A DNA stretch of 64,000 bases from Cloeon dipterum (taxonomy: Eukaryota > Arthropoda > Insecta > Ephemeroptera > Baetidae), in the NCBI RefSeq assembly GCF_949628265.1, contig NC_088786.1:8804001-8868000 (forward strand), given 5' to 3'. Shown here piece by piece: positions 43,345 through 44,296 of the stretch (within the stretch, counting starts at the first letter, position 1; every line of letters starts with the position of its first letter). Under the pieces are notes generated by a model. It had not been told where the DNA came from. It made no database searches and was given only the letters and a program-made list of their open reading frames with translations. The translations under genes were made by a program, and so were the position numbers.

Positions 43345-44296
43345 ATGGCTGCGTTGGTCCAGGGTGTTCGTGGTGCTCTTGCAATTAGTTCGTGCCTCCT
43401 GCGGGCCACCCTCCCGAGGGCTACCATCGTCGGTCTGCAGCAGAAGGGTATCCACACGAATCTCTGTGGTGTCACACCTTCTGCGGCTCTCCTCAGATCC
43501 AGAAATGAGGTGCGAAAACTCGGGCCAAACAGCCGGCATGAATGGATGAAAAACATTCAAGTCCTAACATAGTTTCGAAATTTATTAGAGAAATCAGCCT
43601 ATTATGGACCTGATTTATGATTCAGAACCTTTACAAATAGAGTTCCTTTTTCTGTAATTGTTTTAACTTTTTTTCCTTGAACAAAGAGCAAAGTTGCTGC
43701 TCAAAGGTGGATGGCCTCTAACCCTGGAGTCAAACCCACCGTGGTCGAGATCAAGGATAGGGTCCTACGGGTGTGCAAGGATTTTGACAAGGTTCACGCT
43801 GAAAAGGTACTAATCCGAGTCACGTAATTTGTTGCAGGTCACAAGGTTGAGTCTGACAAGACAGTCCATCCGCCTATACAGCGACAAAGCACCCCTCAGT
43901 CTTGAATTGATTCGCGACAGAGTTCTCCTTGTACTCAAATTGTACGATAAGATTCAGCCAGAAAAGGTATGGATGGCTGTCCTGTCCAGGCTCACCTTTC
44001 ACACACGCTTTGTAGAATAATTAAAACTGACGATTTGGCCCTCAATTTCAGCTCACACTGGAAACACATTTTCTTAATGACCTCGGTTTGGACTCCTTAG
44101 ACCATGTCGAAATCATTATGGCCATGGAGGATGAATTTGGTAAAGTCACTACCTGTCGAGAGAGTGAATAGGACCTTAATTTGTAATTGATTGTCCTTGA
44201 ACAGGGTTCGAGATCCCTGATGGCGACGCAGAGCGACTCTTGAGGCCTGCAGACATTGTCCGATACGTGGCCGACAAAGAGGACATTTACGAATGA
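43345..44296 (+). CDS. NDUFAB1: Mitochondrial acyl carrier protein (complex I subunit NDUFAB1)
   Basis: Exons: 43345-43509, then either 43687-43806 (2A) or 43838-43966 (2B), then 44052-44139 and 44205-44296. Products: 154 aa (2A) or 157 aa (2B). The first exon encodes a basic, Ser/Ala/Leu-rich mitochondrial targeting sequence. The third holds [19 protein letters not shown]; the Ser of DSL (113 in the 2B form, 110 in 2A) carries the 4'-phosphopantetheine arm. The C-terminus [11 protein letters not shown] to [13 protein letters not shown] is typical. The protein serves mitochondrial fatty acid and lipoate synthesis, is a complex I subunit and supports Fe-S assembly (established). All exons are phase-compatible. 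It starts about 290 bp from the divergent zinc-finger gene. Confidence 0.97.
43687..43806 (+). CDS. NDUFAB1: ACP alternative exon 2A
   Basis: 40 codons, phase 0 at both ends. [21 protein letters not shown] aligns with helix I of ACP and with exon 2B, but is more diverged. Acceptor: pyrimidine tract then GAACAAAG. Donor: AAG|GTACTA. Confidence 0.9.
43838..43966 (+). CDS. NDUFAB1: ACP alternative exon 2B
   Basis: 43 codons, phase 0 at both ends. [22 protein letters not shown] is close to the common animal ACP sequence, and RLYSDKAPL precedes it. The acceptor TTTGTTGCAG lies only 31 nt after exon 2A. Confidence 0.95.

Follow-up and report, generated by a model that had tools for sequence, protein, structure and literature searches.

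Positions 43345-44296 on the plus strand of the window (the whole stretch of 64,000 nucleotides from Cloeon dipterum that was analysed) contain a gene that encodes the mitochondrial acyl carrier protein (ACP), NDUFAB1/mtacp1. Its coding sequence can be read in two forms, isoform A with exon 2A and isoform B with exon 2B, both of which exceed the Pfam cut-off of 20.8 bits for PF00550 (42.4 bits for A, 40.9 bits for B). For both isoforms, the top match among solved structures is chain 8ba0_T, at 159.8 bits with exon 2B and 125.2 bits with exon 2A. The sequence of this chain is also present in 8esw and 8esz, entries that passages of the source paper describe as complex I of Drosophila melanogaster (PMC10036122). 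The exon pair, taken together with the match to the ACP of fly complex I, is the basis of the label "insect-type" that is used below.

Exon 1 (43345-43509, 165 nt of coding sequence) contains the start codon and encodes the greater part of the mitochondrial presequence; its end, in phase 0 at GAG/GTGCGA (donor score 2.4), was set from phase and donor, independently of homology. Splice-site and branch scores, here and throughout, were obtained with hand-made weights from a fly-like consensus. Intron 1-2A (43510-43686, 177 nt) contains a branch candidate, TTAAC, whose A occupies position 157 and precedes the acceptor by 20 nt. Two tandem exons follow, exon 2A (43687-43806, 120 nt) and exon 2B (43838-43966, 129 nt), each in phase 0 and each coding for the end of the presequence and for helix I, in a divergent form in 2A and in the canonical form in 2B. 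The gap between them (43807-43837, GTACTAATCCGAGTCACGTAATTTGTTGCAG) is 31 nt long and holds the 5' splice site of 2A and the 3' splice site of 2B; the exon lengths, phases, and gap agree with those given in an earlier note on this DNA. Downstream lie intron 2B-3 (43967-44051, 85 nt; donor GTATGG, score 4.4; candidate branch site CTGAC, 21 nt before the acceptor), exon 3 (44052-44139, 88 nt), which encodes the DSL motif at the phosphopantetheine site, intron 3-4 (44140-44204, 65 nt), and the coding part of exon 4 (44205-44296), which ends in the stop codon TGA at 44294-44296. All of these features are on the plus strand.

The two alternative exons are homologous to one another: their local alignment score of 53 was reached by none of 5000 shuffles, for which the maximum was 37, and as tandem exons they occupy one and the same position in the protein. 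That both encode helix I, as had been proposed from the letters, is borne out by alignments of the two isoforms with solved mitochondrial ACPs, which extend across this helix. Exons 2A and 2B also code for the C-terminal part of the presequence and for the start of the mature protein. To place this start, short solved chains were used, among them 7v2c_G: its first residue, presumably the N-terminus of a mature mammalian ACP, aligns with residue 70 of isoform B, near which the mature protein would then begin. Just upstream of the likely processing site each exon encodes an arginine (RLY/S in 2B, RWM/A in 2A), and an R-3 rule is known for presequence processing sites. The canonical form, KLYDKI, is encoded by 2B, and the same form is found in the fly complex I chains of 8ba0, 8esw, and 8esz (six chains with one sequence) and in two chains of 8b9z, which we also take to be from fly. 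The structure matches comprise the best 60 of 106 solved sequences for each isoform, with three alignments inspected. Because the main isoform could have been the default choice of those who built these models, the presence of KLYDKI in the fly chains is treated as a lead only.

A search that scores only its best candidates turned up no second copy of the gene, of exon 2A, or of exon 2B in the 190-Mb genome. Processed copies, whose presence would have revealed spliced transcripts, were likewise sought for either isoform, but only the gene itself matched, at E values up to 0.1 in one search and up to 1 in the other. Two further phosphopantetheine-binding matches above the cut-off are present in the same genome (L001, G000:C2:25081046-25081201; L002, G000:C3:32811796-32811933); the search that returned them omitted the ACP gene of the window, its domain being split by introns. 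A viral collection yielded 81 relatives of exons 3-4, of which 80 were kept (35-61% identical), and no relative was found in the prokaryote collection. The motif TTAYRTAA, which we take to represent the letters of the NRG element, named but not spelled out in published passages, has no match within the mtacp1 gene; the window as a whole has nine matches against 7.8 expected by chance, the nearest at 42708-42715.

Mutually exclusive tandem homologous exons have been described in mtacp1 of D. melanogaster, D. pseudoobscura, Anopheles, and Apis in passages of PMC551531, and exons a and b of mtacp1 (CG9160) are presented as an exclusive pair conserved in all insects studied in passages of that paper and of PMC2241641. 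The earlier note had mentioned only "alternatively spliced forms" in Drosophila; the pair is real, but exclusive tandem exons are in print for four insects and, subsequently, for every insect studied, so that the present locus is less novel than the title of that note suggests. A 1999 report by Ragone is said to be the one cited for the duplicated exons of mtacp1. The C. dipterum gene resembles the a/b pair of Drosophila, Anopheles, and Apis, as portrayed in the published passages, in being the same gene with tandem homologous exons in apparently exclusive use. However, the duplicated exons are there described as flanked by phase 1 introns (PMC551531), whereas the flanking introns here are phase 0 on both sides, a difference that phase naming may explain. 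Because the phase differs from that published, our claim is limited to an insect-type pair and does not extend to a proven common origin in one duplication. Neither a gap length, nor a branch point, nor a mechanism that enforces exclusivity is stated in the published passages on the a/b pair.

Intron sizes in the same genome bear directly on whether 2A could be spliced to 2B. The earlier note had put the shortest introns of the window at 49-58 nt, and a floor of this kind holds on a wider genome sample. Among 33 resolved introns of Cpn60-family genes (GT-AG, frame kept, near the estimate), the shortest measures 50 nt. When lengths were estimated coarsely for Cpn60 and myosin genes, 97 of 98 came to at least 46 nt, crowding between 49 and 63 nt, with the caveat that a stop-free intron of 30 or 33 nt could pass as an insertion within a match; in the sole outlier, estimated at 34 nt, 12 profile positions are unaligned, and this value is unreliable. 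The coarse set consists of 95 estimates from a first set and three added later (339, 351, and 478 nt). Neighbouring matches were paired if the genomic gap was up to 1500, the profile gap was between -30 and 12, and the later match lay farther along the profile. The Cpn60 matches used were 53 of 54 places (C5:14962143-14962517 was left out), and the main set included 80 of 101 myosin places; the remaining 21 gave 15 neighbouring pairs, of which three pass and 12 fail the filter. A further match set of 128 places was left out of the intron estimates. From 37 Cpn60 pairs, 36 introns were obtained, and three were discarded, their donor scores not exceeding 0 or their lengths differing from the estimate by more than 6 nt. 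Because the sampled introns bottom out near 50 nt, a 31-nt intron between 2A and 2B is very unlikely, and the reading of the gap as a micro-intron was rejected on size; the proposal that 2A cannot be spliced to 2B thus finds support in the introns of the same genome.

Isoforms A and B are both open, as are the joining of 2A to 2B and the skipping of both exons; retention of the gap leads to an in-frame stop six codons on. Since double inclusion and double skipping keep the frame, nonsense-mediated decay could remove gap-retaining transcripts only. Double inclusion must instead be blocked by spacing, because the 2A/2B junctions are in phase 0. This argument for a steric role extends that of the earlier note; it has no bearing on double skipping, which spacing does not prevent.

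The gap opens with GTACTAAT (43807-43814, plus strand), in which the weak donor of 2A (GTACTA) would overlap the branch point of 2B (TACTAAT, predicted branch A43813). CTAAT is present at 43810-43814 with its A, A43813, 24 nt from the 2B acceptor, as had been claimed. This adenosine is the top-scoring branch site in the gap (6.6, the next being 4.0), and its distance fits the best branch sites of the 33 reference introns, which lie 10-29 nt from the acceptor in a scan limited to 10-32 nt. Counted from the 2A donor, A43813 is at position 7, whereas the best sites of the 20 introns no longer than 84 nt fall at positions 24-67, and the one at position 24 scores poorly (1.4). Measured against a minimum of about 50 nt between 5' splice site and branch point, both position 7 of the predicted A43813 and the entire gap of 31 nt are too short. 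An AG lies 5-6 nt past the proposed branch adenosine (43818-43819, plus strand); used as an acceptor it would add six in-frame residues to 2B, and it is probably too near for such use. The branch motif supports this reading but alone proves little because it is common by chance and unenriched in the window: shuffles of the gap place yTAAy at a usable position in about 10% of cases and TACTAAY anywhere in 0.6%, and TACTAAT occurs seven times in the window against 9.0 expected.

The two exons differ in the strength of their splice sites. The donor of 2A scores 0.7, a value as low being found in 1 of 33 reference donors, and that of 2B scores 4.4 (26 of 33 at or below); the corresponding acceptors score 0.7 for 2A (4 of 33 at or below) and 2.5 for 2B (14 of 33 at or below). 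The 2A donor is weakened by CTA at +4 to +6, bases that it shares with the branch motif. The sharing of CTA by the weak donor and the branch motif suggests a trade-off, with 2B as the default exon.

These data make it likely that the locus carries the insect-type mtacp1/NDUFAB1 exon pair and that its exclusivity is steric, arising from a gap below the intron floor and from a 2B branch point within the 2A 5' splice site. As judged from the genomic sequence, mutually exclusive use of 2A and 2B is well supported, both by the architecture and by the published insect cases; we infer that C. dipterum uses both exons, that A43813 is the branch adenosine, and that U1 and U2 compete. Under this mechanism, U2 snRNP on the branch point would commit exon 1 to joining with 2B, and 2A would be lost with the lariat; U1 on the 2A donor would cover the 2B branch point, and 2A would be joined to exon 3. 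Site strengths suggest 2B, the form in solved fly complex I, as the likely default, and 2A would need help or be used in particular cells. A more ambitious version, which we put forward tentatively and hold to be somewhat doubtful, is that GTACTAAT acts as a bifunctional element, either a 5' splice site for U1 or a branch point for U2, that this double role forces the weak 2A donor, that a direct contest between U1 and U2 sets the ratio of the two ACP forms, and that the overlap, together with the exon pair, has been kept through insect evolution.

The alternative that survives best, although we consider it rather unlikely, is that gap length alone gives exclusivity and the overlap of donor and branch point is a by-product of squeezing both into 31 nt, the 2B branch possibly lying instead at A43796, A43787, A43822, or A43827. 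Given a floor of about 50 nt, 31 nt would indeed suffice, and exon 2A itself offers two sites of the form yTnAy, TTCAC (A43796, 41 nt from the 2B acceptor) and TTGAC (A43787, 50 nt). However, from either site AGs at 43806 and 43819 intervene before the acceptor, as does one at 43791 for the farther site, whereas 30 of the 33 reference introns have no AG between their best branch site and the acceptor, and the three that do have no branch site above 4.0. The candidates within the gap, A43822 (GTCAC, 15 nt from the acceptor) and A43827 (GTAAT, merely 10 nt), score 1.3 and 4.0, respectively, well short of the 6.6 of CTAAT. Score, distance, and intervening AGs thus make overlap with the 2A donor, as the earlier note had it, the best-supported placement of the branch point, although its location is a prediction.

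It is less likely still that RNA secondary structure or a trans-acting factor mainly sets the choice, with steric exclusion as a backstop. The weak sites of 2A would suggest regulation, and exon 17 of Dscam reportedly combines steric hindrance with structure; against this, a search for long competing RNA pairings found only short and imperfect inverted repeats in the gene (six pairs of 10-20 nt, 80-91% identical). That 2A is a decaying or unused relic, with 2B alone spliced in this species, would accord with its weak donor and acceptor and with the greater distance of isoform A from the fly chain, but is most improbable given an open frame of 120 nt that is free of stops, in phase 0, and flanked by usable splice sites, a PF00550 score that matches that of isoform B, and an exon pair that published passages describe as conserved, with EST support, in other insects.

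The preferred reading, steric exclusion through the short gap and the overlapping branch point, has counterparts elsewhere. In alpha-tropomyosin, Smith and Nadal-Ginard reportedly described in 1989 how an unusual branch point location enforces exclusivity. The intron there is longer and its branch point distant from the acceptor, whereas here the entire gap spans 31 nt and the predicted branch site has a normal spacing to its acceptor. In OGDH, which like mtacp1 encodes a mitochondrial protein, passages of PMC7969005 put the branch points for exons 4a/4b at 25-41 nt from the 5' splice site, a spacing under the steric limit of about 50 nt; however, the intervening intron is 118-131 nt in birds and mammals, and the human branch points, at least 25 nt from the 5' splice site, do not overlap it. 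Potential steric interference is given for 57 of 629 human clusters in passages of PMC5740500, and passages of PMC6071210 put the short-intron rule for exclusivity in general terms. The C. dipterum locus adds one more case of an exon pair and a steric principle that are both already known; the possibly new detail is a 5' splice site and a branch point that share bases. Neither a gap length nor a branch point for mtacp1 was found in the literature searched, in which subscription papers are thinly covered, and such details may be published. Should the overlap prove real and conserved, it would represent about the simplest exclusive switch, made of two exons, 31 nt, and one shared recognition element, and it would offer a readily mutated test case for competition between U1 and U2. 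It also draws attention to what the ACP with the divergent exon 2A does, since it is the 2B form that occurs in the retrieved chains of fly complex I.

Another candidate set of tandem exons was observed in the same genome at G000:C1:23761540-23765164 (minus strand), where seven tandem matches to one stretch of the myosin head (profile positions about 377-440) lie 320-519 nt apart. These are probably mutually exclusive relay exons of an arthropod muscle myosin gene, for which passages of PMC2257972 give two to six variants in the species studied. Steric exclusion is ruled out for these exons because the gaps between them are far too long. Elsewhere in the window, a protein kinase piece (16875-17429, plus strand) and a SIK3 UBA domain (28767-29213, plus strand) perhaps belong to one SIK3 gene, and a weak MIF4G-like match under the Pfam cut-off lies at 54508-54867 (plus strand).
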